This document shows, piece after piece, positions 40,760 to 57,407 of a DNA stretch of 64,000 nucleotides. This stretch comes from Metaclostridioides mangenotii (lineage in GTDB: Bacteria > Bacillota > Clostridia > Peptostreptococcales > Peptostreptococcaceae), in contig NZ_JAHLOF010000001.1 of NCBI RefSeq assembly GCF_018917235.1, forward strand, positions 248,001-312,000. The letters are read 5' to 3'. Below the pieces are notes generated by a model, which was not told the DNA's origin, ran no database searches, and worked only from the letters and a program-made list of their open reading frames with translations. Made by a program: the position numbers and the translations under genes. Position 1 is the stretch's first letter. Every line of letters starts with the position of its first letter.

Positions 40760-41290
40760 ATGCCAAATCTGCCAAATCTAGGGTCCAAAGCACCTGACTT
40801 CACGGCTAATTCTACTGACGGCCCTATTAGGCTATCCGACTTTAAAGGAAAATGGGTTGTACTATTTTCTCATCCAGGCGATTTTTCACCAGTTTGTACA
40901 ACAGAGTTTTTAGAGTTCACAAAGTACCACAAAGAATTTACAGAAAGAAATACTGAGTTGCTTGCTATTAATAATGATAGTAACAATGCGCACTTAGCAT
41001 GGATGTACAATATTTTTATGATTACGGGTGTAGAAATTCCGTTTCCAATTGTTGAAGATAGGGATCTTAGAATTTCTAGAACTTATGGTATGATCTCTAA
41101 ACCTACAGAAACATACTCTGTTAGATCTGTATTTATAATTGACTGTGACCAAGTTCTAAGAACCATACTTTACTATCCTGTCACAACAGGAAGAAATATT
41201 CCAGAGATTCTTAGAATCGTAGATTCTCTACAAACTACAGATAAAAACGAAGTCCTTACTCCTGCAAATTGGTTACCAGGTATGACGTGA
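40760..41290 (+). CDS. cotE: CotE-like spore coat protein, piece 1: peroxiredoxin domain
   Basis: The 5' piece of a split peroxiredoxin-chitinase gene. The 176-residue reading is a 1-Cys/Prx6-like peroxiredoxin: KAPDFTANSTDGPIRLSDF, peroxidatic Cys46 in HPGDFSPVCTTEFLEF, and RSVFIIDCDQVLRTILYYP. Residues 1-167 belong to the coat gene. After VLT-PANW the reading runs into element 1 and stops after LPGMT, so the family's C-terminal PVILP and DWYLCF segments are missing; they lie at 48038 onward. C. difficile CotE has this domain order and is a mother-cell-made coat protein. The ribosome site is GGGGGG. Unexcised DNA would still give a truncated peroxiredoxin. Confidence 0.88.
   Translation: MPNLPNLGSKAPDFTANSTDGPIRLSDFKGKWVVLFSHPGDFSPVCTTEFLEFTKYHKEFTERNTELLAINNDSNNAHLAWMYNIFMITGVEIPFPIVEDRDLRISRTYGMISKPTETYSVRSVFIIDCDQVLRTILYYPVTTGRNIPEILRIVDSLQTTDKNEVLTPANWLPGMT
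41261..41274 (+). repeat. attL core of element 1
   Basis: The 14-bp sequence CCTGCAAATTGGTT, identical to 48038-48051. It lies in frame inside the peroxiredoxin codons for P-A-N-W. Recombination between the copies joins VLT to PANWFPGQPVILP. Confidence 0.85.
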
Positions 41291-41671
41291 GTACAATAAT
41301 ACTCACTCATTATTTTAGTGTAGGTGGATACTATTGCTAAATAAATTGGTTACAAATTAAGTATAAGAATATTAAAGATGAGTTTATACAGGAAATAAAG
41401 GGAGTATTAAATAAAGTTGAGATAACAATATCTTGTATTCTCTTAATAGATATAACCATTTATAAATGAAAAAGAGCCAATGTATCAATTTACATGGCTC
41501 TTTTTTTCACTTCATCTAACTAAGACATAATTAAAAACATCTAAGAATATCATTATATTTTATTTTTCAATTGAAATGGTAATATATAAGCAATAATCAA
41601 TATTTTACTAGATGAATTTAATATGTATAAATCCGCTGTACATTTCTTTATTTTAGATTAAGTTAAAAACA
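41291..41671. other. Left end of element 1, no gene seen
   Basis: About 380 bp without a supported gene. It holds an 11-bp second copy of part of the att core (AAATTGGTTAC at 41343-41353) and a terminator-like hairpin at 41471-41508. Confidence 0.5.
41471..41508 (+). terminator. Terminator inside the left end of element 1
   Basis: AAAGAGCC-ATGTA pairs with its complement, followed by seven T residues on the plus strand. It would end transcripts entering from cotE piece 1, so unexcised cotE cannot read into the element. Confidence 0.8.
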
Positions 41672-42229
41672 CTATTTAATAGCATCTTCATAAACATTTT
41701 TAGTATTCTCTTCCATTTGCTGTAATCTAGCCTTAATACTATTTAATTCAGATTTAGCTTTTTCTGATTCTGATTTGTACTGATCCCTCTCGGCATTTGC
41801 TTTGCTTACTTCATTAGCCTTTTCATTGATCTCTTTTACCTTCTCATTTATCTCATTAATTTTCTGATTTATCTCATTTTGTTTATCAGACAATTGCTGC
41901 CTTAAACTTTTAATCTCTTGTTCTGATGACTGATTCCCCTGTTTCAATGAGTTCAATTCATTTTCTAATTGTTGTTTTTGAGATTCTAACGTTGTCTTTT
42001 CAGATATCAATTGCTCTTTATTTTTTAGTAATTCATTTGCTTTATTCTCTAGCGTAACATTATCGGTTTTACTTCGCTTTAAACGACCAGCTAGATCATT
42101 CACTCTGCTTTCAGTATTAGCTATAATCGAATTCCAATCTATTGAAGATTGAAATGCCAAAACTGTTCCTCCAGAGAAGATAATAGCGGATACTAAAAGA
42201 CTTATACCTAATTTACTAAATTTTTTCAT
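41672..42229 (-). CDS. Exported coiled-coil protein (element 1 cargo)
   Basis: A 185-residue protein. The N-terminal hydrophobic segment (KLGISLLVSAIIFSGGTVLAF) is a signal peptide or anchor. Residues of about 45-180 form a long heptad coiled coil with tandem seven-residue units (INQKINEINEKVKEINEKAN). No enzymatic domain is visible and no family is recognised. It lies alone near the left end of the element. A spacer or surface scaffold role is possible but not shown. Confidence 0.7.
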   Translation of the reverse strand: MKKFSKLGISLLVSAIIFSGGTVLAFQSSIDWNSIIANTESRVNDLAGRLKRSKTDNVTLENKANELLKNKEQLISEKTTLESQKQQLENELNSLKQGNQSSEQEIKSLRQQLSDKQNEINQKINEINEKVKEINEKANEVSKANAERDQYKSESEKAKSELNSIKARLQQMEENTKNVYEDAIK

Positions 42230-42439
42230 TTCATACTCCTTGTCGTATAATAGAATTTTAATTTACAAGTTTCTAGCATGCTAATTAGTTTTTGTAAATA
42301 CATTTAATAAAAATATAGAGTGATCACCTACCCTCTTATATATACACAATAATTTTCTTCTTAATCACAAAACAATTATTATTTATATATTACTAAGGGT
42401 TATTACTTATAAACTTAATTACATTCTATGTAAACCACA
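42230..42439. other. Intergenic, element 1
   Basis: AT-rich sequence upstream of the coiled-coil gene. No feature was recognised beyond its presumable promoter. Confidence 0.35.
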
Positions 42440-42469
42440 TTGCCATGATTCCTTTTTCTTCGAATATAT

Positions 42470-42726
42470 TCATATAATCGCCTCTTTAAACAGCAGGACA
42501 CTTAGTATTCTGTATCTCATGTAAACCCCAAGATAATCTTTAATCTTACCCCTATTCTTAAAACCTATAATGTGTAAAATCGGTACGTATCTATCGTTTA
42601 ATCTAGGTATGCTCTTGCATGCTACCCTAATCCTAATACATGCTCAAATTTATAAATCCTATCAGAATGCTCGTATATTCTGCACTCTTTTATATCGAGT
42701 ATGTTTTCAAATAAATCTTCATTCAT
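42470..42726 (-). pseudogene. Frameshifted coding remnant (element 1)
   Basis: On the minus strand an ATG at 42726 opens a 34-codon reading (MNEDLFENILDIKECRIYE...) that stops at TAG. The plausible continuation, two bases out of phase, reads RLNDRYVPILHIIGFKNRG and KIKDYLGVYMRYR before stopping near 42474. This looks like a decayed gene of unknown family, with base composition slightly richer in G+C than its surroundings. It could be chance. Confidence 0.3.
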
Positions 42727-42769
42727 ATATCAATCTCTAATCATTTGTTTAGTTTATATTGAAATAAAA

Positions 42770-42793
42770 AAGCACCTACTATTTGTAGATGCT
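42770..42793 (-). terminator. Hairpin after the DUF2089 operon
   Basis: AAGCACCTAC pairs imperfectly with GTAGATGCTT, followed on the minus strand by a U-rich tract. It lies downstream of the 64-residue membrane protein gene. Confidence 0.6.
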
Positions 42794-42839
42794 TAGAAAA
42801 TTAATTCTTATATCTAACTTTTTTAATTTAAAATAGCTA

Positions 42840-43034
42840 TTATTTATTTCTAATAAAAGTTTTTATTAATAAAAATACTGACATTAAAAAACCTATAATT
42901 ACAATTGGCATTAACTTTAAACCTGGTTCTAAAACTGTTCCATCATCTTTTATTATTACTCCAAATTTCACTGCAAAAATTCCAATTATTAGAGAAATTA
43001 TAAAAATCAGCATTGATAAATAATATTTTTTCAT
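42840..43034 (-). CDS. Small two-helix membrane protein (element 1 cargo)
   Basis: A 64-residue protein, almost entirely two transmembrane helices (LSMLIFIISLIIGIFAVKFG and LKLMPIVIIGFLMSVFLLI). It is the third gene of a three-gene minus-strand operon after a DUF2089 regulator and a 104-residue membrane protein. I recognise no family. The context suggests a small membrane complex regulated by the DUF2089 protein. Confidence 0.55.
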   Translation of the reverse strand: MKKYYLSMLIFIISLIIGIFAVKFGVIIKDDGTVLEPGLKLMPIVIIGFLMSVFLLIKTFIRNK

Positions 43035-43058
43035 AATATTTCTCCTAACATTAATGAG

Positions 43059-43373
43059 TTATTCTAAATCTTGTAAATTCATTTTGTCTAATTCATTATT
43101 CCTCTCTATTTCTTTACGACCAAGATAATATATCACTAATAGAACTATTGACGGTATATTAAACATTATAAATATAAATATAAATCTAAATATATCTGTA
43201 AAGCTAAAATTAATAATTGAGATAGTCATAAATGCAAGTATAATAGATCCTATAAAAGTAATTAAAGGAAATATCAATCCTAAAAATTTATTTGATTTAG
43301 ACGAAAGTATACTTTGAAAATAAGCAACTCCAAATATTAAAATGATTCCTAAAATAATAGTCATAATTTTCAT
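43059..43373 (-). CDS. Membrane protein of the DUF2089 operon (element 1 cargo)
   Basis: A 104-residue protein with about three hydrophobic helices (MTIILGIILIFGVAYFQ; FLGLIFPLITFIGSIILAFMTI; IFRFIFIFIMFNIPSIVLLVIYYL) and an acidic C-terminal tail. It starts 3 bp after the DUF2089 gene ends, so the two are probably translationally coupled. No family is recognised. It may be the membrane partner of the DUF2089 protein. Confidence 0.6.
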   Translation of the reverse strand: MKIMTIILGIILIFGVAYFQSILSSKSNKFLGLIFPLITFIGSIILAFMTISIINFSFTDIFRFIFIFIMFNIPSIVLLVIYYLGRKEIERNNELDKMNLQDLE

Positions 43374-43376
43374 AAT

Positions 43377-43670
43377 TTAAACCTCCTGTTTTGTTTTTTT
43401 ATACTCTTTTATTAAAAGTTTTGCAGTTTCAAAATCGATTTTATCTTCTATTGCAAGACTTTTAATTATTGCTACATACGGTTCTGTATCGATATCTTGA
43501 CTTAAATTAATTTTTTGTATTAATCTATCTAATCTTAAGCGAACAGTTGGATAGCTAACATCATAAATTTTTGCAACTTCTTTTAAAGATCCTGATGAAG
43601 TTATAAATATTTTGATAAAATTTATATCTTCATCATCAAGATTTTCTAACCATTTTGGAAGATTTCTCAC
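43377..43670 (-). CDS. DUF2089-type helix-turn-helix protein (element 1 cargo)
   Basis: A 97-residue cytosolic protein. Residues of about 12-60 form a sigma region-4/HTH-like fold (DEDINFIKIFITSSGSLKEVAKIYDVSYPTVRLRLDRLI, read in parts) that matches the DUF2089 family. A C-terminal helical part follows. DUF2089 proteins are probably DNA-binding regulators paired with small membrane proteins, and two such genes follow here. It is the first gene of the operon. Confidence 0.75.
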   Translation of the reverse strand: MRNLPKWLENLDDEDINFIKIFITSSGSLKEVAKIYDVSYPTVRLRLDRLIQKINLSQDIDTEPYVAIIKSLAIEDKIDFETAKLLIKEYKKTKQEV

Positions 43671-44071
43671 ACAAATGCCCCCTTTTTAATTTATTTATAA
43701 AATCTAAAGAGTTTTTCTATAATTGGTATTTTTATAATAAGTGTTATAAATACAAATAATTATCCTCCAAAGATTCTTATTGATTTCTTCGATATATTTA
43801 TAATAAACTTTAATATTGTTAAAGTCAATATTAATTTTATTAAATATTTTATTTATTATTTTTTAAATAAAATTAATATTAAAGTAATGTTTTTTATATG
43901 ATTATTTATTTTTACTCATTAACTTTTGCATTAAAAAAGAACCCTATATAGTAGAGTTCTTTTTATACTTATTTTTTTCTATAACGCTGGCGATCGCTCT
44001 TCATTTCACAATATAATTAACCCGTTTAATTATTATTGAAACAGGCAATAAAAATACAATTGATTTTACTA
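43671..44071. other. Intergenic, element 1
   Basis: About 400 very AT-rich bases. The only clear structure is a hairpin at about 43930-43965 (AAAAAGAAC with GTTCTTTTT), a possible terminator. No gene was seen. Confidence 0.4.
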
Positions 44072-45493
44072 TTATTCTAATTGTTTTAAATGTGTAACAG
44101 TTCTTTCATACTTATAACCATTATACACATTTATAACTTCTTCTTTCTCAATACTAAATTTATCATTGTCTCCAGAAACAATTGTAGCTACATTATCTTT
44201 ATACTCAGACTTACTAATATTTACATCTATCCCAATATCATTTATATTACCGTATAAATAACATACAGGTTTATTATCTTTTATAAATACCATTTGTGTC
44301 ATGTCTGAGCCTTCAGTTTCAGTTATACTTCTCCATTTGTAACCAACTTTTTTATATATGATTTCTCTTGGTGTTTCTGGAGCAAATACATATGCCTTAT
44401 CCCATTTAAATGGTGTTATTTCTGATAAACTGGCCTCTTTAACTTTATCTTCAATCTCATATAACGCCATCGACAACAATCCAAAGTTTTCTTCTTCTTT
44501 TTCTAAATCACTTAAATCAAATATTGTTAAATCACTAGTTTTATTAACAACATTCCACTCATTATTTTTCTTTTCTAATTTAAAGTTTATTTTAGATATA
44601 CACTCACCATGTTTACCCGGTTGTGTAACTATAACATTTTCGCCAGACTTATTTTTATAATTATGTTGAGTAATTTGCTTATGCGTATGACCTGCAACTA
44701 TAGCATCTATTCCTTCTACCTCATGTGCTAAATCTTGTATTCTATTACCTGGATTTCTTGGTTTCTTAGGTTTTTCACCTGAATGAACAACTGCTACTAT
44801 GATATCAGCCTTATCCTCTTTCATTTTACCAACCCATTTGTTTGCATCTTTTACTAAATCATTCATATATAATTTTCCTTCATACTCTGGCTGGTCTTTT
44901 AATTCCCTAGATTTTAAATCAACAAGTTTTCCATCCCGAGTACCATCATCTACTCTAGTTTGCCTTTCACCAACTTCCTTTATTGTAAGTCCTAGAATGC
45001 CTAACTTTACTGTCCCACTTGATGTTGGAATATCTTTAATTATATAAGGATCAGTATAACTCTCACCATCTTTTTTATATGTATTTGCTGATAATACTTT
45101 CATACCATGTTTTTCAAAGTCAGAAATAATATTATCTAATTGAAGTTTATTTAATATAAACTCATGATTTCCAAGTACTACTGAATCATATCCCAATTCT
45201 TTCATGTCTTTTACAATAGGTGCTTGTCTGTATTCATATGGATTTTCGATACTTTTTTCAAAATATTTAGCCATGTCTTCATTGCTTCCAGAATCAAAAA
45301 AATCACCGGCATCAACTAAGGTTAAATTTTTATCTTTTTTAAACTCATTCTTTACATATGAAGATAGCTTGTAAGGTATCTCTCCATGTAAATCAGTAGT
45401 GGCTAATATATTTATTTCTTCTTTGTCAGTACTACAACCTGTTATTAGAAAAACTGTTAATACTACCAAATATGTCATTAATATTTTTCTCAT
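44072..45493 (-). CDS. Lipoprotein metallophosphoesterase, 5'-nucleotidase/UshA-like (element 1 cargo)
   Basis: A 473-residue protein with a lipobox (VFLITGCSTD, lipidated Cys20). The metallophosphatase motifs are complete: ILATTDLHGEIPY, VDAGDFFDSGSNED, VLGNHEF, IVAVVHSGE and VAGHTHKQI. The C-terminal part is the less conserved 5'-nucleotidase region. It probably hydrolyses nucleotides or cyclic nucleotides at the cell surface for purine salvage. It is an ordinary metabolic gene in the element and would leave the mother-cell chromosome when the element excises. Confidence 0.88.
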   Translation of the reverse strand: MRKILMTYLVVLTVFLITGCSTDKEEINILATTDLHGEIPYKLSSYVKNEFKKDKNLTLVDAGDFFDSGSNEDMAKYFEKSIENPYEYRQAPIVKDMKELGYDSVVLGNHEFILNKLQLDNIISDFEKHGMKVLSANTYKKDGESYTDPYIIKDIPTSSGTVKLGILGLTIKEVGERQTRVDDGTRDGKLVDLKSRELKDQPEYEGKLYMNDLVKDANKWVGKMKEDKADIIVAVVHSGEKPKKPRNPGNRIQDLAHEVEGIDAIVAGHTHKQITQHNYKNKSGENVIVTQPGKHGECISKINFKLEKKNNEWNVVNKTSDLTIFDLSDLEKEEENFGLLSMALYEIEDKVKEASLSEITPFKWDKAYVFAPETPREIIYKKVGYKWRSITETEGSDMTQMVFIKDNKPVCYLYGNINDIGIDVNISKSEYKDNVATIVSGDNDKFSIEKEEVINVYNGYKYERTVTHLKQLE

Positions 45494-45652
45494 TTTCTAA
45501 AACCTCCTGATTAGTATTTACATAATTTGACACATTTTATAGTATATCAGAAAATTTATTGTAATTCGGATTATTTTGTTATAAAAATATCTATCAAAAA
45601 GATATTATTGTAAATTCTACTTTTAATATTTTCACCCTCATAATGCAATTGA

Positions 45653-45680
45653 ATAGAAGGTACTTAACGTACCTTCTATA
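45653..45680 (-). terminator. Hairpin after the 60-residue membrane peptide gene
   Basis: ATAGAAGGTAC pairs with GTACCTTCTAT around a short loop, just past the stop of the gene at 45685. The U-tract is weak. Confidence 0.55.
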
Positions 45681-45684
45681 GTAG

Positions 45685-45867
45685 CTAACTTTGTTTTTTA
45701 TTTCGAATATCATTCTCTGATTTATTATTTTCATTAGATAGTTCCTCATATTTTTTTCTTTGATCTAAGTTAATTTCACGCTCTACCTTTCTTCCCAAGT
45801 TATATACTATTATAAGACACACAACGCCTACTGTTAAATAGATAGATAAAGTTATTATATTATTCAT
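45685..45867 (-). CDS. Single-helix membrane peptide (element 1 cargo)
   Basis: A 60-residue peptide: one transmembrane helix (ITLSIYLTVGVVCLIIVYNLG) and a charged cytosolic tail rich in Lys, Glu and Asn. The ATG at 45867 is preferred because GGAGGGTGG precedes it. The longer reading starts inside that site. I recognise no family. It is the nearest cargo gene to the recombination module. Confidence 0.5.
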   Translation of the reverse strand: MNNIITLSIYLTVGVVCLIIVYNLGRKVEREINLDQRKKYEELSNENNKSENDIRNKKQS

Positions 45868-46135
45868 AGTTCCACCCTCCAATTCCCCTCTAAGCATTTT
45901 TAATAGTTTTAAAAATTTTCATTTTATCTATTTTATGCAATACGTATTAGTGTATGTCTATACCGTTTATCTTCTAGTAAATATGTCTTTACTAATTTTT
46001 ACTTTCATTTCATATCAACATAATTTAGATCATTCATCCTAAATCACTTGTTAATTAATATCGGTTAAGCTCCTAACTTGTCCTATTTATTTGTAAAGAA
46101 GTGCTTAAATAGCACATCTTATTAATATCTACAAT

Positions 46136-46324
46136 CTACATAACACTTTCTCTTTCTGCCATGCCTTTTAATATTTGAATATGCACTCTCTTTATCTCTT
46201 CAAGTACAGCATCATTTTCTTCTTTAGAGTGTCTTGCAAATTTAACATAAACCTTTGTGTTTCCAACTGTATTAACTTTGTCATACTCATGTCCATGCCA
46301 TAACTTTTCTGTTTTATTATCCAA
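46136..46324 (-). CDS. Candidate recombination directionality factor of element 1
   Basis: A 62-residue protein encoded divergently from the recombinase. It begins with TTG (46324) behind a strong GGGGGTGG ribosome site. It shares the segment VYVKFA and a following charged helix with the 66-residue protein at the same position in element 2 (54884-55084). Large serine recombinases need a small accessory protein (RDF) to excise; SprB in SPbeta and CD1234 in the C. difficile skin element are small proteins of this kind (recalled from memory). Position, size and conservation suggest the same role. No sequence match to a known RDF was tested. Confidence 0.6.
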   Translation of the reverse strand: MDNKTEKLWHGHEYDKVNTVGNTKVYVKFARHSKEENDAVLEEIKRVHIQILKGMAERESVM

Positions 46325-46376
46325 GAAACCACCCCCTAATATGGTTTATGCTTTTCAAAATTTGTCCTATTCTAAT
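46325..46376 (-). promoter_or_regulatory. Conserved promoter of the element 1 small ORF
   Basis: On the minus strand, GAATAGGACAAAT is followed by a CATA box, with ATA-17 bp-CATA spacing. The same motif and spacing recur in element 2. A CATA-type -10 is the hallmark of SigE/SigK promoters. Assigned by eye. Confidence 0.45.
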
Positions 46377-46424
46377 TAATCATTGATATTTGTGGATCTT
46401 GCTCTTTTAGTAATTTCTTTAATA

Positions 46425-46470
46425 TACAAGCATAAGTGATAATAGAATATTCATATCAATATAATTACTA
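46425..46470 (+). promoter_or_regulatory. Recombinase 1 promoter with near-palindromic operator
   Basis: GTGATA and TATAAT separated by 18 bp, SigA-like. The near-palindrome ATATTCATATCAATAT (46447-46462) overlaps the -10. The same arrangement, with a perfect palindrome, is found upstream of recombinase 2. Confidence 0.5.
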
Positions 46471-46496
46471 TAGAGAAGTCTTAAGGGGGTTTACTT

Positions 46497-48014
46497 ATGA
46501 ATGTAGCTATTTACCTGCGTAAGTCTCGTGCTGACTTAGAAGCTGAGAAAAACGGTGAATTTGAAACTTTAAATAGACATAAAACAACTCTTCTAAAAGT
46601 GGCTAGAGAAAATAATCTAAATATAATCGAAATAAAAGAAGAGATTGTTTCTGGAGAATCTATTATACATAGACCGAAAATGATAGAACTCTTAAAAGAG
46701 GTTGAAGCTAAAAAATACGATGCTGTACTAGTAATGGATATTGACCGTCTTGGACGTGGAGATATGAAAGATCAAGGAGTTATATTAGAAACATTCAAAG
46801 ATAGCAGTACTAAAATAATAACTCCAAGAAAAGTTTATGACCTTACAAACGAATTTGATGAAGAATACTCTGAATTCGAAGCTTTTATGGCTCGTAAAGA
46901 GTTAAAATTAATTACTAGAAGGATGCAAAGAGGTAGAATAAAAAGTCTCGAAGAAGGTAATTACATTTCTACTGATGCCCCTTTTGGTTATGATATAGTT
47001 AATCCAAATAAAAAAGAAAGAACATTAAGTCCTAACGAGCACGCTGATACAGTGAAACTTATTTATGATTTGTACATCAATGGCGATATGGGTTATACCA
47101 AAATTGCTAGCTATTTAAATAAAAGACATATACCCGCTTACAAAAGTGATAAATGGTCCGTATCTTCTATAAGAAATATCATACAAAATAGAACTTATAC
47201 TGGTGTATTAGAGTGGCAAAAAATAAAAACTACAAAACAGATGAATGAAAATGGTAATTCTGTTCGAATAAGAAATGATGAAGAAAATGTAATTGTAGCT
47301 AATGGAAAACATCCTGCAATAATTACAGAAGAAATTTGGGAAAAAGCTAGAAAAATAAGAGAATCGTATACTCATACAAATCACTCTAATAAACTAAGTA
47401 ATCCGCTTGCTGGAGTTCTAAAATGTAAATTATGTGGTAAAGTAATGTATGCACATCATGGTCGTGGAACAAAACATGTAACATGTAGAAGTAAATGTGG
47501 GAATAAAGGTTCTCGTTTCGAATATGTCGAAAAAGCACTAAATGATACTTTGGAAAAGTATTTAAATATATATGAAATAAAAACAGTTAAATCAGATATC
47601 AAATCAGTAAAAACATACTCTGAAAAAGAAATAAATGAAAAAGCACTAAATGAGCTAGAAAACGAACTTGAAGAATTAGGAAAACAAAAAAATAAACTCT
47701 TTGAATTACTTGAAAGAGGTATTTATGATGATGATACTTTTCTAGAAAGAACTCAAATTATACAAAATAAAACTGATACTCTAAATAATAGTATCGAAGA
47801 CATAAAAACAAAAATGAAAACAGTTATGAAAGATGATAAGCAAATTGCAGTAGGAATTAGAAAAGTATTAGAATTATATCCAATTACTGATTCAGCAAAA
47901 GAGAAAAATAATTTAATAAAATCAATTGTGAAAGAAGCAATTTATTATAAAAGGCAAGATCAAAGAAAAGATGAATTTGAGCTATACGTTGAATTAAAAG
48001 TCCTTGAGGATTAA
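46497..48014 (+). CDS. Large serine recombinase of element 1
   Basis: A site-specific recombinase of 505 residues. The N-terminal resolvase domain has the nucleophile Ser10 in AIYLRKSRADLE and the Arg-rich VMDIDRLGRGDM. The recombinase domain follows (DAPFGYDIVN; HIPAYKSDKWSVSSIRNII), then a zinc ribbon (CKLCGKVM and CRSKCG) and a C-terminal coiled coil. It resembles the SpoIVCA-type recombinases of skin elements. It ends 23 bp before the attR core and has a GGGGG ribosome site. Its N-terminus is nearly identical to recombinase 2, but the DNA-binding half differs, which fits different att sites. Confidence 0.93.
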   Translation: MNVAIYLRKSRADLEAEKNGEFETLNRHKTTLLKVARENNLNIIEIKEEIVSGESIIHRPKMIELLKEVEAKKYDAVLVMDIDRLGRGDMKDQGVILETFKDSSTKIITPRKVYDLTNEFDEEYSEFEAFMARKELKLITRRMQRGRIKSLEEGNYISTDAPFGYDIVNPNKKERTLSPNEHADTVKLIYDLYINGDMGYTKIASYLNKRHIPAYKSDKWSVSSIRNIIQNRTYTGVLEWQKIKTTKQMNENGNSVRIRNDEENVIVANGKHPAIITEEIWEKARKIRESYTHTNHSNKLSNPLAGVLKCKLCGKVMYAHHGRGTKHVTCRSKCGNKGSRFEYVEKALNDTLEKYLNIYEIKTVKSDIKSVKTYSEKEINEKALNELENELEELGKQKNKLFELLERGIYDDDTFLERTQIIQNKTDTLNNSIEDIKTKMKTVMKDDKQIAVGIRKVLELYPITDSAKEKNNLIKSIVKEAIYYKRQDQRKDEFELYVELKVLED

Positions 48015-48034
48015 TACTTATTCGTTGTCATGTT

Positions 48035-49012: not shown

Positions 49013-49036
49013 TTACAATCATTGTTACTGTATAGG

Positions 49037-49077
49037 AAAAAACATACTTTATCCTTTTTCCATCGTTAAAGTATGTT
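49037..49077 (-). terminator. Terminator of the csp operon
   Basis: AACATACTTTA pairs with its complement around a 14-nt loop, followed on the minus strand by a run of U residues. It lies past the cspC stop. Confidence 0.75.
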
Positions 49078-49190
49078 ACATATCCAAACAATATAAATAT
49101 AGGCTATACTAAGAGACATGCACATTTCAAAATAGTATAATACACTTTATTACGCAAGTGAATAACAAGCATAGCGTTCAGGATAATGTA

Positions 49191-50867: not shown

Positions 50868-50876
50868 ATTTACCTC

Positions 50877-52535
50877 CTATCTAAAAAAATCAAACATTCT
50901 TCTTACGTTTAAAACTCCATATCCATAACTATAATTTGGATAAACTATATTTGTAGCTCGATCTGCACCCAATTTTATAAATGTTTTAAAATTAGATAGA
51001 TATGCTTGATTATAGTAGTTTCCATCCACAAATGTATACTGAAAATACAATGCTGCTGCCCCTGAAACATGTGCTGCTGATGCTCCTGTCCCTGTTATAG
51101 TACCATACGTATTGCCAGGATAAGGAGCGATAATATTTACACCTGGAGCAATGATATCTGGTTTTGCCCAATTTTGTATAGTAGGCCCTCTTGAAGAACT
51201 ACTCCATAAACTCCTGTTGAATGAATTATAGGCACCAACAGTTATATTTTCTTCTATAACTGCTGGGTAATTTATGGTATAAGATGGGTCGGGATTTCTA
51301 AATCTTGTTCCACTTTTTAAGAATATTCTATTTGGCAAGTATATATTATATCTCCCATTGATTATATTAATTCCAGTTATTCTTATCGTCCAAACACCAC
51401 GTACTACATTTCGCAGATATATTTGTATAAATTGTTGACCTGAAACGGTTGTAGGATATCTTGAAGTTATTCTATAATAAGTACCCTCTAAATCAAGTAG
51501 TCCGCTAACTTCTAGATAGTTAGTGTACGCACTTACCCCCCTGGTACTTTCACCTGAAGGAGTAACTAGTTCCATTTCTATTAAATCAGGCCTTTGTACC
51601 CACAGGTCTAATGTTAGTTCTTCTTCATCTTCACTAAGCTCAAACTCCACATTGGCTGTATCTCCATTAAGCTGTAGTCTTCCTGTTGTATGTGTTTGTG
51701 TATCACCCTCATCTCCTGCTCCAACAACCTCGCAATATCCCCTATTGTAGTATCTTGACGTATTCGTGTTAGTTAACCCCAAGAGATTGTTACTTCCATA
51801 AGATATATTTATTACTACAGGCATATTTAGTTGTCGGGCTTTTCCATATGCATACTCTATTGACGCAAACAACATTGCATTATTATAATATCCTTCTATA
51901 GTTCCAAGTTTTACAATAATCAATTCGGCTTCATATGCAACACCTGCATATTCGGGATTCACATTACCCATACCAGCACATATACCACTAATCATTGTTC
52001 CTCTTCCTATTTCATCTTGAGATAAACTAGAGTCATTGTTCTGTATAGCTATATTAATATCTTCCCTTGTATACTCTGTACCAAAATAAAATCCTTCTGG
52101 AGGTATACCATCTTTTGTCTGGTCCCATAAATAAAGTATTTTAGATGTACCATCGGGGTATATAAAATCAGGATGTAAATAATCTATACCACTATCTGCA
52201 ACTGCTATTATTACACCTCTACCCGTTATAGATATATTGGGGTTGTTTTTGAAGTAGTTAACACCTATTTCTTCAGTTGCCACGATACCATTTTCAACCC
52301 CTTGACTGACTTGAGATAGTGGAGCCATTCTTATAGTTCTTTCGACATTAATGACTGATCGCAACATTAATATATCTTCAAGCCCTTGTGAATATGTTTC
52401 TTCACTTAATCGCAGAATTCCTAAATCATTAGTTAATCTTATGAAATCATACGGATAACCAGCCGATTCAAACTCATTAAAAAAATTAGGTGTAAATGTT
52501 ACATTTAAATCAAAAATAATATTATTTCCATTCAT
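50877..52535 (-). CDS. CspA-like pseudoprotease (element 2 cargo)
   Basis: A second S8-fold protein of 552 residues, paralogous to its neighbour. Asp114 is present (IAVADSGIDYLHPDF). The His position is Arg178 (GRGTMISG) and the Ser position is Gly484 (TGTGASAAHVSG), so it too is catalytically dead. In C. difficile the CspB protease and the CspA pseudoprotease are fused and lie before cspC. Here the gene before cspC encodes a single unfused domain of CspA size. No active CspB is in this window. The A versus B assignment rests on the dead active site and gene order. The start has an AAGGAG ribosome site. Confidence 0.75.
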   Translation of the reverse strand: MNGNNIIFDLNVTFTPNFFNEFESAGYPYDFIRLTNDLGILRLSEETYSQGLEDILMLRSVINVERTIRMAPLSQVSQGVENGIVATEEIGVNYFKNNPNISITGRGVIIAVADSGIDYLHPDFIYPDGTSKILYLWDQTKDGIPPEGFYFGTEYTREDINIAIQNNDSSLSQDEIGRGTMISGICAGMGNVNPEYAGVAYEAELIIVKLGTIEGYYNNAMLFASIEYAYGKARQLNMPVVINISYGSNNLLGLTNTNTSRYYNRGYCEVVGAGDEGDTQTHTTGRLQLNGDTANVEFELSEDEEELTLDLWVQRPDLIEMELVTPSGESTRGVSAYTNYLEVSGLLDLEGTYYRITSRYPTTVSGQQFIQIYLRNVVRGVWTIRITGINIINGRYNIYLPNRIFLKSGTRFRNPDPSYTINYPAVIEENITVGAYNSFNRSLWSSSSRGPTIQNWAKPDIIAPGVNIIAPYPGNTYGTITGTGASAAHVSGAAALYFQYTFVDGNYYNQAYLSNFKTFIKLGADRATNIVYPNYSYGYGVLNVRRMFDFFR

Positions 52536-52595
52536 AACAACAACTCCTTATCTTATTGTAGTTATTTTTAGTCTTTTATATTAAATCTATTATCA

Positions 52596-52624
52596 TTATA
52601 TTTTCAGCTTAGACAGTGTATTCA
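52596..52624 (-). promoter_or_regulatory. Candidate SigG-like promoter of the csp operon
   Basis: On the minus strand TGAATA, an exact SigG/SigF-type -35, is followed after 16 bp by AATATAA (four of seven to CATACTA). It lies about 60 bp upstream of the CspA-like start. Forespore expression would match known csp regulation. Confidence 0.4.
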
Positions 52625-52858
52625 CTAATTGAAAGAAAACATAGATATATACAATACATCAATGTAAAATATGTTATGAAAGAAACAGTATAATTACATA
52701 TTGAGAATCTACTCGGCTCCCTACTGCTAGAGGAAATTCTAATTAAGGATTAAATAAAGGTAGACTCGAATATGGAGAAGAAATTATAAATAAAAAGAAA
52801 TAGATTTTAAATTAATTTGAAATATAGTGTAAAATTCTTATAACTAGAGACAAAAAAA
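52625..52858. other. Intergenic, element 2
   Basis: About 230 bp between the csp promoter and the flagellin terminator (the whole gene-free stretch is 52536-52895). No gene or other feature was seen. Confidence 0.35.
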
Positions 52859-52888
52859 TAAAGAGTAGAGAAAACTCTACTCTTTATA
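52859..52888 (-). terminator. Terminator after the flagellin gene
   Basis: AAAGAGTAGAG with CTCTACTCTTT around an AAAA loop, just past the flagellin stop. Confidence 0.8.
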
Positions 52889-52895
52889 AAGTAAA

Positions 52896-53744
52896 TTATT
52901 GCATTAATTGTAATATGCTTTGTGGTTGTTGGTTAGCTTGAGCTAACATTGATTGAGATGCTTGAGCTAATATGTTTAATTTAGATAATTGAACCATTTC
53001 GCTTGCAACATCTGTATCTCTTATTCTTGATTCAGCAGCTGTTATATTTTCTACAGTATTAGATAAATTAGCTGAAGTTGATTCAAGTCTATTTTGTTGC
53101 GCACCTAATGTTGATCTTGCAGAGTTTACTTTAGCAAGAGCAGCGTCTATGTTTGACATCATAGTTCTTGCAGCAGTAGTTCCATCTGAAGTTCCTGCTT
53201 TCATAGAAGATATATTAGCTGAAGTTATTCCAGCATCAGTCATTATTTTAGAAGTGTTTACTAAGTCAACGTTGATTTGGTTATTAGATGAACCATCAGA
53301 ACCTACTTGTAGACTTAATTGAGTATTAGAGCCGTCTAATAACTGTTTACCATTGAACTCAGTAGTTTTAGACATTCTAGTTAATTCGTCATTTAATTGT
53401 GTTAACTCGTTTGCTATTTTCTCTCTTTCATCCTTTGTATTTGTTTCATTAGCTGATTGAACAGATAATTGAGACATTCTTTTTAGAATATTACCTGTTT
53501 CTTCTAATGCACCCTCAGCAGTTTGAACAACAGAAATACCATCTTGTACGTTTAATCCAGCTTGGTTTAATCCTTTAATTTGATTTCTCATTTTTTCAGA
53601 TATAGCTAGTCCAGCTGAATCGTCTGCCGCTCTTTTGATTCTTAATCCTGAAGATAATTTCTCCATTGATCTACTTTGTAAAGCTGTATTTTTGTTCATT
53701 TGGTTGTTTGCTATTAAAGCATTTACATTGTTGTTAATTCTCAT
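52896..53744 (-). CDS. fliC: Flagellin (element 2 cargo)
   Basis: A flagellin of 282 residues with intact terminal domains. The N-terminal D0/D1 has MRINNNVNALIANNQM, SMEKLSSGLRIKRAADDSAG and LAISEKMRNQIKGL. The C-terminal D1/D0 has RSTLGAQQNRLESTSANL, ESRIRDTDVASEM and AQASQSMLAQANQQPQSIL. The variable centre is short (about 60 residues). It is a single gene away from any flagellar operon, inside the intervening element. The leader carries a CsrA-like site and a SigD-like promoter. It may be one of several flagellins in the genome or the only one; the window cannot tell. Confidence 0.95.
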   Translation of the reverse strand: MRINNNVNALIANNQMNKNTALQSRSMEKLSSGLRIKRAADDSAGLAISEKMRNQIKGLNQAGLNVQDGISVVQTAEGALEETGNILKRMSQLSVQSANETNTKDEREKIANELTQLNDELTRMSKTTEFNGKQLLDGSNTQLSLQVGSDGSSNNQINVDLVNTSKIMTDAGITSANISSMKAGTSDGTTAARTMMSNIDAALAKVNSARSTLGAQQNRLESTSANLSNTVENITAAESRIRDTDVASEMVQLSKLNILAQASQSMLAQANQQPQSILQLMQ

Positions 53745-53769
53745 CTTATTACTCTCCTTAGTCTATATA

Positions 53770-53781
53770 GGCATCCTTGCC
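53770..53781 (-). promoter_or_regulatory. CsrA-type hairpin in the flagellin leader
   Basis: On the minus strand GGCAAGGATGCC forms a 4-bp stem with AGGA in the loop. It contains CAAGGATG, the core of the CsrA consensus, and lies about 10 nt upstream of the AAGGAG ribosome site. This is like the two-site CsrA control of Bacillus hag. Confidence 0.5.
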
Positions 53782-53813
53782 AAAATTTGTAAGTAAATTA
53801 ACTTACAATATAA

Positions 53814-53840
53814 TAATCGTCCTATATTACAAAAACATTA
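53814..53840 (-). promoter_or_regulatory. Candidate SigD (sigma-28) promoter of the flagellin gene
   Basis: On the minus strand TAAT, 15 bp, then GACGATTA, against the TAAA-N15-GCCGATAA consensus (three of four and six of eight). The spacing is exact. Confidence 0.45.
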
Positions 53841-54128
53841 ACATATATTTAAAAATAACTGATAAAGGGTAAAAAAGTGATATTGCCATATCTAATTATA
53901 TTATCTCTATCTGTCGGAATATACACTGGATGCTCTAGTTGGAAACTTTGGTATGATTTTAAAATCTCTCTTATTTCTTAAATCCGTATTATCTTTATTT
54001 GATTATGCAATGCATTCTCATGGTTTCAGTATAGTCAAACACAAATAATTTTAAGCTACATTTATATAAATGTATCCAAAATATTATTTAACACATATAT
54101 CTATAGTAAAACATTTAGGAGGTTTATT
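53841..54128. other. Divergent intergenic region, element 2
   Basis: AT-rich sequence between the divergent flagellin gene and the unknown gene at 54129. Beyond the promoters it must contain, no feature was recognised. Confidence 0.35.
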
Positions 54129-54647
54129 ATGTATCAAAATATTTATCCAAATCCTCTTCAATTGCAAAATTCAATAAATTTGATACAGGATACAATAAAC
54201 GCTATGGAGCAAGATTTTCTTTTATATAATTGGTTAAATGGTAAACTACCTATTTCAGAACTTCTAACTTTACCCTCACCTAATCTTGAAGAGATATATG
54301 ATATTCTAGAAATAATTGAAACACTAAAAAACGATAGCATTAAGAATAGCACTTTATTGAAAGAAATATATTTTCAACTGACAGGTACTCATGCCAATAT
54401 CGAACAGGGTTTTTATTTCGTTCCGCCGAGAGATTTATTTACAGGTATATACGATGCCATTGTAAAATCTACTGGGTATGTAAAGCAATTAAGACTTATA
54501 ATGTTTGGATTACCAAATTTTTATTATAGAGATGCACTTTTCAGTATAATATCTGATGAATTAAATCATGGGACTTTAGTTAATTATGTGCATTCAAAAT
54601 TAATACGTATTCAAAATGAGCGAAATCTTAATATCCCCATACTATAA
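54129..54647 (+). CDS. Unknown helical protein (element 2 cargo)
   Basis: A soluble protein of 172 residues, predicted all-helical with no signal peptide or membrane segment. It begins NIYPNPLQLQNSINLIQDTI. Conserved-looking acidic and His positions (EQDFLLYNWL; EEIYDILEIIETL; THANIEQGFYF; DELNHGTLVNYVH) are spaced in a way reminiscent of ferritin-like four-helix bundles, but no E-x-x-H pair is certain. It has an AGGAGG ribosome site and its own terminator. I recognise no family. The setting next to spore genes suggests a spore-related role, as inference only. Confidence 0.55.
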   Translation: MYQNIYPNPLQLQNSINLIQDTINAMEQDFLLYNWLNGKLPISELLTLPSPNLEEIYDILEIIETLKNDSIKNSTLLKEIYFQLTGTHANIEQGFYFVPPRDLFTGIYDAIVKSTGYVKQLRLIMFGLPNFYYRDALFSIISDELNHGTLVNYVHSKLIRIQNERNLNIPIL

Positions 54648-54726
54648 AATTCAAATTATCTATTGTATAAGTTCTATGGGTTTTATTTAAGAGCTATCTT
54701 TCCTAAGTATAGCGTATAGTGAGGTT

Positions 54727-54770
54727 AACATGCCATCTTATTAAACATATTAGGTGGTATGTTCTTTTTT
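54727..54770 (+). terminator. Terminator after the unknown helical protein gene
   Basis: AACATGCCATCTTAT pairs imperfectly with ATTAGGTGGTATGTT and is followed by a run of T residues. Confidence 0.75.
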
Positions 54771-54883
54771 ATATTTCAATCTTTAATTACAATGATCTAA
54801 TAACTTACAATTCATTTTTTAACCTCCTGATTGTCCAATTTATTTTTAAAGAAGTGCTATAAAAGCACATCCAGTATTTATCA

Positions 54884-55084
54884 TCAAAGTTGTATACCTC
54901 TTTTTGCATATTCATAAATATACTTACAATTTAAATCGATAACATGTTGTCGTCTCTTTTTATTTATTTCATCTGGGATATCTGCAAATTTTACATATAC
55001 TTCGCAAACATCAGTTACATTTAATGCATCTGCTTCGAATCCTGATATATCATTTATGAATTTACCTCTTTGAACTTTTTCCAT
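54884..55084 (-). CDS. Candidate recombination directionality factor of element 2
   Basis: A 66-residue protein divergent from recombinase 2, with an AAAGGGGGAG ribosome site before ATG at 55084. It shares VYVKFA and the following basic/acidic helix with the 62-residue protein of element 1. The sequence downstream of both genes is also alike, including a GTGCT...AGCAC hairpin. By position, size and conservation it is the best candidate for the excision-promoting partner of the recombinase. It could instead be a repressor of the shared palindromic promoter. Confidence 0.6.
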   Translation of the reverse strand: MEKVQRGKFINDISGFEADALNVTDVCEVYVKFADIPDEINKKRRQHVIDLNCKYIYEYAKRGIQL

Positions 55085-55134
55085 TAGATCTCCCCCTTTT
55101 TCTATAGGTATGTTTGAATAGATTTGTCCTATTC
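55085..55134 (-). promoter_or_regulatory. Conserved promoter of the element 2 small ORF
   Basis: On the minus strand GAATAGGACAAAT is followed by CATACC, with ATA-17 bp-CATA, the same as in element 1. This suggests a mother-cell (SigE/SigK-type) promoter. Confidence 0.45.
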
Positions 55135-55224
55135 AAAACAACATTCTTATCTAATTTCAAATAATTCTTTAAAATCTACTTAAACAATTCCGCTAACTTT
55201 TTAGCTAACTTATGTCCTACAATG

Positions 55225-55256
55225 AGTGATATTAAAATATTGATATCAATATAATT
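55225..55256 (+). promoter_or_regulatory. Recombinase 2 promoter with perfect 16-bp palindrome
   Basis: GTGATA and TATAAT separated by 18 bp. The perfect palindrome ATATTGATATCAATAT (55237-55252) overlaps the -10 and looks like a dimeric repressor operator. Confidence 0.5.
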
Positions 55257-55287
55257 AATATAGACGAGTTTTGAGGGGGGATTACAT

Positions 55288-56760
55288 ATGAATGTAGCAA
55301 TCTATTTACGTAAGTCACGTGCAGATTTAGAAGCAGAAAAGAATGGTGAATTTGAGACGTTAGATAGGCACAAAACAACCTTGCTAGAACTTGCAAATGA
55401 CATGGATCTAAATGTTCTTGAAATAAAAGAAGAAATTGTATCAGGAGAATCTTTAGTAAGTAGACCTAAGATGTTGGAACTCTTAAAGGAAGTTGAATTA
55501 AAAAAATATGATGCAGTTTTAGTAATGGATATTGACCGTCTTGGACGTGGTGGTATGCAAGATCAAGGTGTTATATTAGATACATTTAGAATTAGCAAAA
55601 CAAAAATTATTACACCTAGAAAAATGTATGATCTGACAGATGAATTTGACGAAGAATACAGTGAATTCGAGGCATTTATGGCACGGAAGGAGTTAAAAAT
55701 AATTAAAAGACGTATGATGAGAGGTAGATATAAAAGTGCTAAAAACGGCAGTTATGCCTACGCCAATGCACCTTTTGGGTACGATATAAAAAAAGTAAAC
55801 AGTGACTATATATTAATTCCGAATAAAGACGCAGATACTGTAAAGTTAATATACAATTTATATGTAAACTACGGTTTAGGATTTAATAAAATAGCTTCCA
55901 GTCTAGACGAATCCGGCGTTAAAACAATGAATGGTGGCAAATGGAATCCTTCTACCATATCAGGGATAATAGACAATATAGCATATATAGGCTTTGTAAC
56001 ATGGCAAAACAATAATAAAAATGAAGAAACTCAAACATTTAAAGGATTACACGAAGCTATAATCGATGAAGAAATATTCAATCAAGCAAAGGAAATTAGA
56101 AAAGCACGACATATTGCCCCTAGAACTAAAGAACTAAAAAATCCTCTAGCCGGATTATTAGAGTGCGGTGTCTGCGGTAAAAAAATGATAATGAAAAAAA
56201 TAGGATCAAACAATAACCCTTACTCTGCCCTATGTAGATATAAATGCGGAAACAGATCCAGTCTTTTTGAAGATGTGGAAATTTCTTTGATACATGCCCT
56301 TAATAATATTTTAAGTCAAGATGTATATGAAATTAACGATAAAGATGTATATGATGATTCAGAAAAAGATGATTTCTTGAGAAAAAATCTAAAAAACTTA
56401 AAATTCGAACTATCTGAACTGGAAAAACAGCAAAGCACAGCTTATGATATGTTGGAAAGACATATATACACAGAAGATATTTTTCTTGAACGAATGAATA
56501 ATATAAAAAATAGAATTTTTGAAACTAATGAAGCTATAAAAAATATAAAAAATAATTTGAAAAAAAATAGTAATGGAACCGAGGAAAAAATAGATATAAT
56601 AAATAAGGTTAGAAATGTCATTGAGTTATATAATAAGTTGGAAGATGTACAAGAAAAAAATGAATTATTAAAATCTATTATTGATTCTATAAAATACTAT
56701 AAAAATAATAGTGAAGATACAATAAAATTGGATGTAACTCTAAGACTAAATGAATCTTAG
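55288..56760 (+). CDS. Large serine recombinase of element 2
   Basis: A 490-residue serine recombinase. It has Ser10 in AIYLRKSRADLE, VMDIDRLGRGGM, the recombinase domain (NAPFGYDIKKV; SGVKTMNGGKWNPSTISGII), a zinc ribbon (CGVCGKKM and CRYKCG) and a C-terminal coiled coil. The catalytic domain is close to that of recombinase 1 (the first 25 residues are the same), while the zinc-ribbon/coiled-coil half has diverged. It ends 54 bp before the attR core. A GGGGGG ribosome site precedes it. It is expected to act on the symmetric attP formed by the ends of element 2. Confidence 0.93.
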   Translation: MNVAIYLRKSRADLEAEKNGEFETLDRHKTTLLELANDMDLNVLEIKEEIVSGESLVSRPKMLELLKEVELKKYDAVLVMDIDRLGRGGMQDQGVILDTFRISKTKIITPRKMYDLTDEFDEEYSEFEAFMARKELKIIKRRMMRGRYKSAKNGSYAYANAPFGYDIKKVNSDYILIPNKDADTVKLIYNLYVNYGLGFNKIASSLDESGVKTMNGGKWNPSTISGIIDNIAYIGFVTWQNNNKNEETQTFKGLHEAIIDEEIFNQAKEIRKARHIAPRTKELKNPLAGLLECGVCGKKMIMKKIGSNNNPYSALCRYKCGNRSSLFEDVEISLIHALNNILSQDVYEINDKDVYDDSEKDDFLRKNLKNLKFELSELEKQQSTAYDMLERHIYTEDIFLERMNNIKNRIFETNEAIKNIKNNLKKNSNGTEEKIDIINKVRNVIELYNKLEDVQEKNELLKSIIDSIKYYKNNSEDTIKLDVTLRLNES

Positions 56761-56796
56761 TAATATCAACCTTTACAGCTTTTTTTTATTTTTAAT

Positions 56797-56820
56797 GTAA
56801 CAATGATTGTAATAATAAAT
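56797..56820 (+). repeat. attR arm and core of element 2
   Basis: The arm GTAACAATGATTGTAA (56797-56812) is the exact complement of 49013-49028. The ATAAAT core follows (56815-56820). On the excised circle the arms flank a 10-bp centre with the central dinucleotide AA (56817-56818). Confidence 0.82.
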
Positions 56821-57407
56821 GGTTAAGCGTTGCAGGAACTGGTGATAGTGCATATGTAAACAACAGTGCAGAAATTGATAAAATAGCACCTATAATTGAC
56901 TACTTTAATCTTATGAGTTACGATTTTACAGCTGGTGAATCTGGCGCTAATGCAAAAAAACATCATGCAAACTTATTTCCTTCAGATTTGTCTTTAGCCG
57001 GATACAGTGTCGATGCAATGGTAAATAATCTTATAAATGCCGGAATGCCTCCTGAAAAGATACTATTAGGAATACCTTTTTACGGTAGATTAGGATCAGC
57101 TATCACTAGATCATATGATCAGCTTAGAAGGGATTATATAAATAAAAATGGATATCAATATAGATTTGATCAAGAAGCTCTAGTTCCATACTTAACTCGA
57201 GAGGGAGAATTTGCTATGTCATTTGAGGATTCACTATCTATATTCTTAAAAACTCAGTATGTTCTTTCAAGATGTCTCGGTGGAATATTCTCTTGGACTT
57301 CTACTTATGATCAAGCAAATATACTTGCAAATACAATGTACCAAGGTATTAATGATCCTGAGAGATTAAGAGAAGAGCTTGAAGGTGTTTACGGTATTTT
57401 TACTTAA
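56820..57407 (+). CDS. cotE: CotE-like spore coat protein, piece 3: GH18 C-terminal half
   Basis: The 3' piece of the split coat gene, 195 codons, in frame from TGG at 56820. It reads WLSVAGTGDSAYVNN, then IDYFNLMSYDF (the GH18 substrate-binding Tyr/Asp strand), LGIPFYGRL and GGIFSWTSTYD (terminal barrel Trp). It completes the chitinase fold begun in piece 2. The frame is open back to a stop inside element 2. An internal ATG at 56913 has no ribosome site, so this piece probably depends on excision for translation. It is followed by a bidirectional terminator. Confidence 0.87.
   Translation, partial: WLSVAGTGDSAYVNNSAEIDKIAPIIDYFNLMSYDFTAGESGANAKKHHANLFPSDLSLAGYSVDAMVNNLINAGMPPEKILLGIPFYGRLGSAITRSYDQLRRDYINKNGYQYRFDQEALVPYLTREGEFAMSFEDSLSIFLKTQYVLSRCLGGIFSWTSTYDQANILANTMYQGINDPERLREELEGVYGIFT

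Follow-up and report, generated by a model that had tools for sequence, protein, structure and literature searches.

In the literature searched, excisable elements are named as interrupting five sporulation genes, namely, sigK, spsM, spoVFB, gerE, and yabG. The closest described system is skinCd, which lies in sigK of Clostridioides difficile and whose excision needs the recombinase CD1231 and CD1234, a published directionality factor of 72 amino acids (aa) encoded in the element; CD1234 is controlled by SigE and SpoIIID, and its expression is confined to the mother cell (PMC5025042). SPbeta in spsM (PMC4191935) and vfbin in spoVFB and yin in yabG (PMC10747680) are likewise elements in a late sporulation gene with their own recombinase, and gin in gerE (PMC5595907) also has its own recombinase, with a short shared core and no phage genes. 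Among cyanobacterial heterocyst interruption elements, several elements were found in 10 of 87 interrupted genes, and nifD of Rivularia sp. PCC 7116 carries four (PMC4874684). Bacterial developmental genes with more than one interruption are thus already known. Here, we describe a stretch of 64,000 nucleotides from Metaclostridioides mangenotii (hereafter the window; G000:C1:248001-312000, from an assembly of 2.87 Mb that is 97.8% complete), in which the spore coat gene cotE is divided into three pieces by two elements, E1 and E2.

E1 and E2 have the features of skin-like elements, as they lie inside a sporulation gene, leave its pieces collinear, are bounded by short direct repeats, and carry their own site-specific recombinase. 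The likeness to skinCd covers the recombinase family (55% identity for E1 and 49% for E2), a related small factor (clearly so for E1, more weakly for E2), the ATA-N17-CATA sequence before that factor, and the location inside a mother-cell gene. Unlike skinCd, the target here is a structural coat gene that is cut twice, and sigK is open in the window genome. The short shared core and the lack of phage genes are as in gin, whereas spsM, spoVFB, gerE, and yabG are each described with one excisable element and cotE holds two, with a third site in relatives. The heterocyst elements share the possibility of several elements per gene but differ in their recombinase genes (xisA, xisC, and xisF), in the cell type, and in lying mostly in nitrogen-fixation genes (PMC4874684). 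It was concluded that cotE is very probably one gene in three conserved pieces, which would become whole once each element has been excised by its own recombinase.

Across the three successive open pieces (Table 1), Pfam recovered a peroxiredoxin domain and then a GH18 domain, with a linker between them, and the piece lengths of 167, 324, and 195 aa give 686 aa for the whole cotE. An earlier note on this DNA, made from the letters alone, had proposed this split, the identity as cotE, direct repeats at the junctions, and a large serine recombinase at the end of both inserts. All of these were borne out, the identity by AhpC-TSA followed by GH18 in Pfam and by homologue alignments for orthology, and the recombinases by their Resolvase and Recombinase domains. 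The positions of the pieces held overall, but their ends moved slightly, with piece 1 running to approximately 41274 and piece 3 starting at approximately 56815–56820. The pieces were also searched singly, never joined beforehand, against intact homologues (7975 candidates scored). In all 120 homologues compared, the best 120 of 330, piece 2 followed piece 1 and piece 3 followed piece 2 without a gap. Since both breakpoints were contiguous in every one of these best 120 of 330, the three-piece order is not due to chance. In P0001 (651 aa), the top-scoring homologue among the matches listed, piece 1 corresponded to residues 1–167 (79%) and piece 3 to residues 457–651 (84%). Piece 3 matched in 45 of the 147 genomes searched (E ≤ 1e-20), and 41 of these 45 had it within one frame of at least 584 aa; the frame was shorter in the window genome, in the relatives G001 and G004, and in Terrisporobacter petrolearius. 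The earlier note had held that an intact second cotE, together with frameshift decay of the pieces in relatives, would speak against it. No second copy was found in the window genome at its 97.8% completeness, where piece 1 (E ≤ 1e-5), piece 2 (E ≤ 0.001), and piece 3 (E ≤ 1e-20) each had a single match, and no frameshifted cotE pieces appeared in relatives. A plasmid search with piece 1 gave no match.

Selection was evaluated on four segments, namely, piece 1, two stretches of piece 2 (85 and 65 codons, both in GH18), and piece 3, with the linker left out. Over the eight comparisons of the window with G001 and G004, the ratio of nonsynonymous to synonymous substitution rates (dN/dS) was 0.03–0.09; it was 0.07–0.09 for piece 1 (aa identity 89–90%), 0.03–0.05 for the two GH18 segments of piece 2, and 0.03–0.04 for piece 3 (aa identity 92%). 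Between G001 and G004, the four segments gave 0.03–0.19, and between the window and G003, dS was saturated in two of the four. Purifying selection thus acts on each of the three pieces in the segments tested. As the DNA of piece 3 was 83–84% identical between the window and G001 or G004, the window genome was taken as a species other than these two.

These results bear on two other explanations. One is that two mobile elements have destroyed cotE and left decaying pieces, in keeping with the frame break in the second piece of another interrupted gene, cotJB of G004, and with excision being a prediction from sequence. However, the three pieces are open, and purifying selection acts on pieces 1 and 3 and on most of the GH18 part of piece 2. 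Moreover, the recombinases, cores, and small genes of the two elements are all open, and E1 occupies the same site in two species at a piece-1 dS of 0.7. A dead cotE is accordingly considered very unlikely. The other is that the pieces act as separate proteins, a peroxiredoxin alone and two GH18 halves apart. Piece 1 does have its own start and holds a whole peroxiredoxin domain, but GH18 is cut inside its fold (profile positions 137/149), and no Shine–Dalgarno-like motif was read directly upstream of the first start in either piece 2 or piece 3. The selection test of piece 3 also took in, as one with the rest, the 31 codons before its first ATG (56913). Separate proteins are considered extremely improbable, and a single cotE in three pieces is the reading followed below.

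Occupancy of cotE varied within the genus, in which the earlier note had proposed looking for uninterrupted or singly interrupted alleles among related genomes. The gene is intact in G003 (822 aa). In G004, it is interrupted once; pieces 1 and 2 are contiguous, which is a natural empty E1 site, and an element of a third kind, E3 (approximately 24 kb, C4:32495-56502), cuts the gene further on in GH18. G001 carries E1 at the site seen in the window (C1:756427-762560; the E1 recombinases are 83% identical) and E3 at the site seen in G004 (763279-795695, approximately 32 kb), and the window genome carries E1 and E2. E1 was also missing at its site in all of the best 120 of 330 homologues. The E2 site was naturally empty in those same 120 of 330 and in G001, G003, G004, and C. 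difficile G020, and the E3 site in the window, G003, and G020. No cotE match was obtained in G002, whose assembly is 84% complete. Outside the genus, T. petrolearius LAM0A37 (G047; L149, L226) carries an element of approximately 12 kb in cotE at the E1 site, with piece 1 aligned to residue 167 at L226:3710-3207 and the rest following the recombinase at L149:7771-9270. The E1 site was likely entered independently in T. petrolearius because a clade of its recombinase with that of E1 was rejected by the approximately unbiased (AU) test (p 2e-5).

The core repeats are direct, and removal at the repeats restores the cotE frame as found in the natural empty sites of relatives. Reconstructed attP sites were analyzed for dyad symmetry with a free centre against shuffles, and the five sites gave p values of 0.0000–0.014. 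E1 had the centre TG in the window (15/25, p 0.008) and in G001 (18/25, p 0.0000), E2 had the centre AA (20/25, p 0.0000), and E3 had the centre AG in G001 (18/25, p 0.0000) and in G004 (14/25, p 0.014). The E2 attP arms (window 56779-56820 and 49005-49034) hold TGTAACAAT, the letters of the putative SpoIIID motif of CD1234 (PMC5025042).

In both elements, the large serine recombinase is encoded at the element end, directly before the next cotE piece and on the cotE strand, and by sequence both recombinases are assigned to the CD1231 family. Recombinases from the same site in different species were 72–97% identical, those between sites, skinCd included, were 42–60% identical (52% for E1 and E2), and conventional ones were 18–26% identical. 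Phage relatives were obtained in 58 of 50,697 records at E ≤ 1e-20 with at most 50% identity, Terrisporobacter phage TVCOM_ph1 being the best, and IMG/VR yielded nine loci with 38–51%. For the AU tests, the groups were defined by insertion site, with the first tree already seen before testing; the conventional recombinases were too distant, so that one was dropped from the first tree and both from the AU tests. A single capture for the E1, E2, and E3 recombinases was rejected (p 5.5e-7), and E1 and E2 as one clade were not rejected (p 0.24).

A small gene is divergent from the recombinase in both E1 (62 aa) and E2 (66 aa). The first profile of such genes was built from seven seeds picked by eye, the E1 and E2 genes among them. 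Its matches beyond the seeds included the gene of an element in a LonC-type protease gene of the window genome (8.8e-21), the open reading frame (ORF) L090:4189-4407 of skinCd (2.3e-7), and the E3 genes (7e-4 and 2e-3). In a leave-one-out check with ten members, all ten were recovered, the skinCd ORF at 1.6e-9 and the E3 gene of G004 at 4.1e-6 (E1 and E2 in Table 1). The E1 small gene is thus clearly predicted to be a directionality factor of the CD1234 type, and a weaker prediction relates the E2 gene to CD1234. The skinCd ORF has 72 aa like CD1234 and lies inside the skin element; it is taken as CD1234 by length and place, not by accession. Across 71 genomes of the family, the small-gene profile matched in 12 and the E1 recombinase (E ≤ 1e-90) in 19.

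The small genes share a promoter-like arrangement. ATA or ATG, exactly 17 bases, and CATA were present at 15/15 element small genes, the CD1234-like gene included, starting 38–50 bases upstream of the start codon. Three of these 15 (SBPb of G001, SBPb of G004, and SBP of G020) were included by position only. For the small gene of the SBP element in the window genome, the seven-seed profile gave 0.007, and the nine-member profiles gave 1e-5 to 4e-4. For the small gene of the cotJB element in the window genome, an internal ATG (L056:9551) was taken as the start, the longer ORF beginning inside the promoter. A GACAA box, TAGGACAAAT, is embedded in the small-gene promoters. The first SigE pattern matched 4 of 12 upstream regions, after which the box was read by eye and counted genome-wide. 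The strict pattern AGGACAAWTT-N8..14-CATA gave 4, 4, 1, 3, and 1 matches in the window genome, G001, G003, G004, and G020, respectively; 12 of the 13 preceded element small genes, and the remaining one was in G003. As the strict pattern was drawn from the same upstream regions, its sensitivity count is partly circular, but the extra cases are not; these are the window-genome SBP element, G004 SBPb, C. difficile G020 SBP, and T. petrolearius, which were found by the pattern and not used in drawing it. In the T. petrolearius element, the box falls inside an ORF that scores 8e-4 with the small-gene profile. In C. difficile, the promoter of spoIIID reads ATA-N16-CATATATA (PMC3789822). Taken together, the resemblance points to promoters that would be read by SigE with SpoIIID. 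A prophage-like region of G004 (L225:6030-6230, G004:C9) holds a directionality-factor homologue without a SigE-like promoter, and AT(A/G)-N17-CATA was not seen there.

From the CD1234-like genes and the shared SigE-like promoter, excision would likely occur in the mother cell. In this scheme, SigE, with SpoIIID, would turn on both small genes in the mother cell, each small factor would help its cognate serine recombinase to excise its element, and the E1 and E2 recombinases would act on their own att sites. The predicted central dinucleotides differ (TG for E1 and AA for E2), which should block recombination between E1 and E2 ends and would prevent loss of the middle cotE piece. Because both small genes carry one promoter type, both cuts would follow one trigger, just before SigK transcribes the whole cotE; in C. 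difficile, cotE belongs to the SigK regulon, and its promoter has been mapped (PMC3789822). The forespore would keep both elements since the cuts would be confined to the mother cell, which dies. The earlier note had described an AND gate of two independent excisions. Two required cuts remain part of the scheme, whereas their triggers are probably not independent, as the same regulator probably acts on both through the shared promoter type. We infer that the two cuts form a two-step requirement, which would give a delay and a safeguard against early CotE, and not a coincidence detector of two signals.

Terminal excision in the mother cell was also weighed against reversible switching in growing cells, either as phase variation or as active lysogeny. 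Recombinases of this family integrate as well as excise, CD1231 alone being able to integrate (PMC5025042), and yin of C. botulinum occurs in two culture subpopulations (PMC10747680), both of which would suit a reversible switch. However, the predicted factors have the SigE-like promoter arrangement of CD1234, with its mother-cell-confined expression, and reversible switching is therefore regarded as highly improbable.

Several points weigh against terminal, mother-cell excision of both elements as set out above. Excision is a prediction from the DNA letters, and the assignment of the promoters to SigE and SpoIIID is one of resemblance. The E2 small gene is weakly tied to its family, as it scored 0.0012 when left out of the profile (1313 ORFs searched), and the E2 promoter is one base off the strict pattern. 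In six frames, no directionality-factor match was found in E1 of G001 (L052:5928-12700) or in the cotJB element of G004 (L093), although a recombinase is present in both; these two elements would thus need a factor in trans, and one from another element might serve. The reversed control pattern gave 1, 2, 2, 2, and 1 matches in the five genomes, that is, 8 against 13; the pattern by itself is not rare, and its placement before the small genes is therefore what counts. An earlier dyad test with a fixed gap was significant for E2 only, with p 0.18 for E1 and p 0.98 and 0.48 for E3. The TAGGACAAAT box matches WWRRACARNY, which we take to be the SpoIIID consensus, and the string itself was not found in the literature searched. 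Finally, the 200 bases upstream of the G020 ORF do not contain TGTAACAAT, the published SpoIIID motif of CD1234 (PMC5025042); thus, the shared box is not the box of that paper.

Table 1. Positions in the window of the cotE pieces, the two elements, their att cores, and the genes and promoter-like sequences that they carry.
Feature	Position	Strand	Detail
cotE piece 1	40760..41274	+	residues 1-167, enters E1 core repeat; Pfam AhpC-TSA 1.4e-32
E1 left core repeat (attL)	41261..41274	+	CCTGCAAATTGGTT, 14 bp
Element E1	41275..48037		approximately 6.8 kb core to core
E1 cargo: predicted coiled-coil protein	41672..42229	-	weak coiled-coil profile matches only
E1 cargo: DUF2089 HTH protein	43377..43670	-	Pfam 1.4e-20
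E1 cargo: calcineurin-like phosphoesterase (2',3'-cyclic-nucleotide phosphodiesterase/5'-nucleotidase-like)	44072..45493	-	profile matches
E1 predicted directionality factor, CD1234-like, 62 aa	46136..46324	-	2.5e-18, nine-gene profile with the skinCd ORF, built without the E1 gene
ATA-N17-CATA with GGACAAA box, before E1 directionality factor	46347..46370	-	promoter-like sequence
E1 large serine recombinase, 505 aa	46497..48014	+	Pfam Recombinase 6.5e-24, Resolvase 1.1e-17
E1 right core repeat (attR)	48038..48051	+	CCTGCAAATTGGTT, 14 bp
cotE piece 2	48038..49010	+	linker and first GH18 half; Pfam GH18 8.1e-28, profile 14-137
E2 left core (attL)	49005..49010	+	ATAAAT, 6 bp
Element E2	49011..56814		approximately 7.8 kb core to core
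E2 cargo: CspC-type germinant-receptor pseudoprotease	49191..50867	-	NF040808 787 bits, cut-off 675
E2 cargo: subtilase like CspA half of CspBA	50877..52535	-	NF040809 positions 557-1099
E2 cargo: flagellin	52896..53744	-	Pfam Flagellin_N 3.4e-41
E2 cargo: 172-aa protein without family assignment	54129..54647	+	similar-looking ORF L093:1933-2451 in cotJB element of G004 (by eye)
E2 predicted directionality factor, 66 aa	54884..55084	-	0.0012 when left out of profile; position and promoter as in the others
ATA-N17-CATA before E2 directionality factor	55109..55132	-	position computed from -48 offset
E2 large serine recombinase, 490 aa	55288..56760	+	Resolvase domain; Pfam Recombinase 2.1e-21
E2 right core (attR)	56815..56820	+	ATAAAT, 6 bp
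cotE piece 3	56815..57407	+	second GH18 half to stop codon; Pfam GH18 3.1e-27, profile 149-317

A literature search, which covered best matches only and left subscription papers largely outside, returned no interruption of cotE, cotJB, or lonC and no sporulation gene with two elements; among these best matches, mangenotii was not mentioned. The doubly interrupted sporulation gene and the set of elements in late spore genes look new. If true, cotE would be, within the literature searched, the first case of a sporulation gene depending on two distinct DNA excisions. Natural cotE alleles with zero, one, and two inserts are available for comparison, and why skin-like elements settle in spore genes becomes a comparative test. 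The shared promoter offers a way to predict the presence of such elements from a genome sequence. Coat-gene searches that rely on intact open frames can miss interrupted genes.

The interruption of one coat gene, as claimed in the earlier note, was confirmed, but it does not concern cotE alone, as cotJB, LonC-type, and SsuA-like genes were hit by the same element family. Skin-type recombinases numbered five in the window genome, six in G001, and four in G004, with none in G003 and G002. The cotJB gene is split in the window genome (L056:7053-12911, G000:C4) and in G004 (L093, G004:C46). In G001, its interruption was assigned via an orthologous recombinase beside cotJC and not from both pieces. 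For the LonC-type protease gene, both pieces were seen in the window genome (L057:1251-10608, G000:C3), and the first piece, followed by the contig end, in G001 (L096, G001:C3). The SsuA-like substrate-binding protein gene (L094, L092, L055, L220, and L222) is represented by its last piece next to a contig end in the window genome, by its last and middle pieces in G001, and by its middle piece and part of the first in G004. Together, these pieces imply two elements in this gene in mangenotii. The same gene is split once in C. difficile G020 and apparently interrupted in Romboutsia lituseburensis (G031), where a first piece next to a recombinase was all that was seen. By contrast with G020, in which the skin element splits sigK, the gene forms a single open frame in the window genome (312.8 bits, cut-off 298.65), G001, and G003; the window genome therefore has no sigK insertion of the skin element proper. 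In G004, sigK matched in two adjoining pieces with a stop and without an insert.

On balance, though with clear reserve, we favour a genus-wide reading in which coat and late spore genes undergo programmed rearrangement, with four to six elements of the same family per genome released together by one mother-cell promoter type. If true, cotE (up to twice), cotJB, LonC-type, and SsuA-like genes would be assembled by DNA splicing, the cargo would be shed, in relatives including lysine-fermentation and suf genes, and the sigK switch of C. difficile would have spread here to structural genes.

With respect to cargo, a PHROGs search with nine small ORFs of E1 and E2 yielded neither capsid nor portal nor terminase and gave a single weak tail-tape-measure match (0.002), to the coiled coil. 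The larger ORFs were identified by Pfam/NCBIfam as phosphoesterase, Csp, flagellin, and recombinases. E1 and E2 do not have the phage structural genes of a complete temperate prophage. CspC-like genes are multiplied in the genus, with approximately four in the window genome (G000:C1:297194, C1:654357, C3:331724, and C2:403156; one is frame-broken) and five in G004, and one CspC/CspA pair rides on E2. That the E2 pair is the sole copy of the genome was rejected, as other copies exist.

Elements at other sites carry further genes, several of which were recognized by eye. E3 (24–32 kb; L053, L032, L033, and L054) holds lysine-fermentation-like genes (aminomutase, CoA transferase, acyl-CoA dehydrogenase, and etf), the cotJB element of the window genome holds agrB-like and agrC-like genes (from the ORF list), and the second element of the SsuA-like gene in mangenotii holds a look-alike of a suf operon. 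A CotJC-like gene lies in the LonC element region, where it is joined in G001 by a Csp-like subtilase. In two other genera (L221, G025; L223, G056), sigK is seemingly interrupted, the cargo being a glycyl-radical enzyme and a large CoA-enzyme activase (by eye). Look-alike ORFs were present in different elements, namely, window 54129-54647 with L093:1933-2451 and L052:7466-7849 with L093:2794-3231. Because different elements hold such similar-looking ORFs, cargo exchange is suggested, and cargo may move between elements at different genes.

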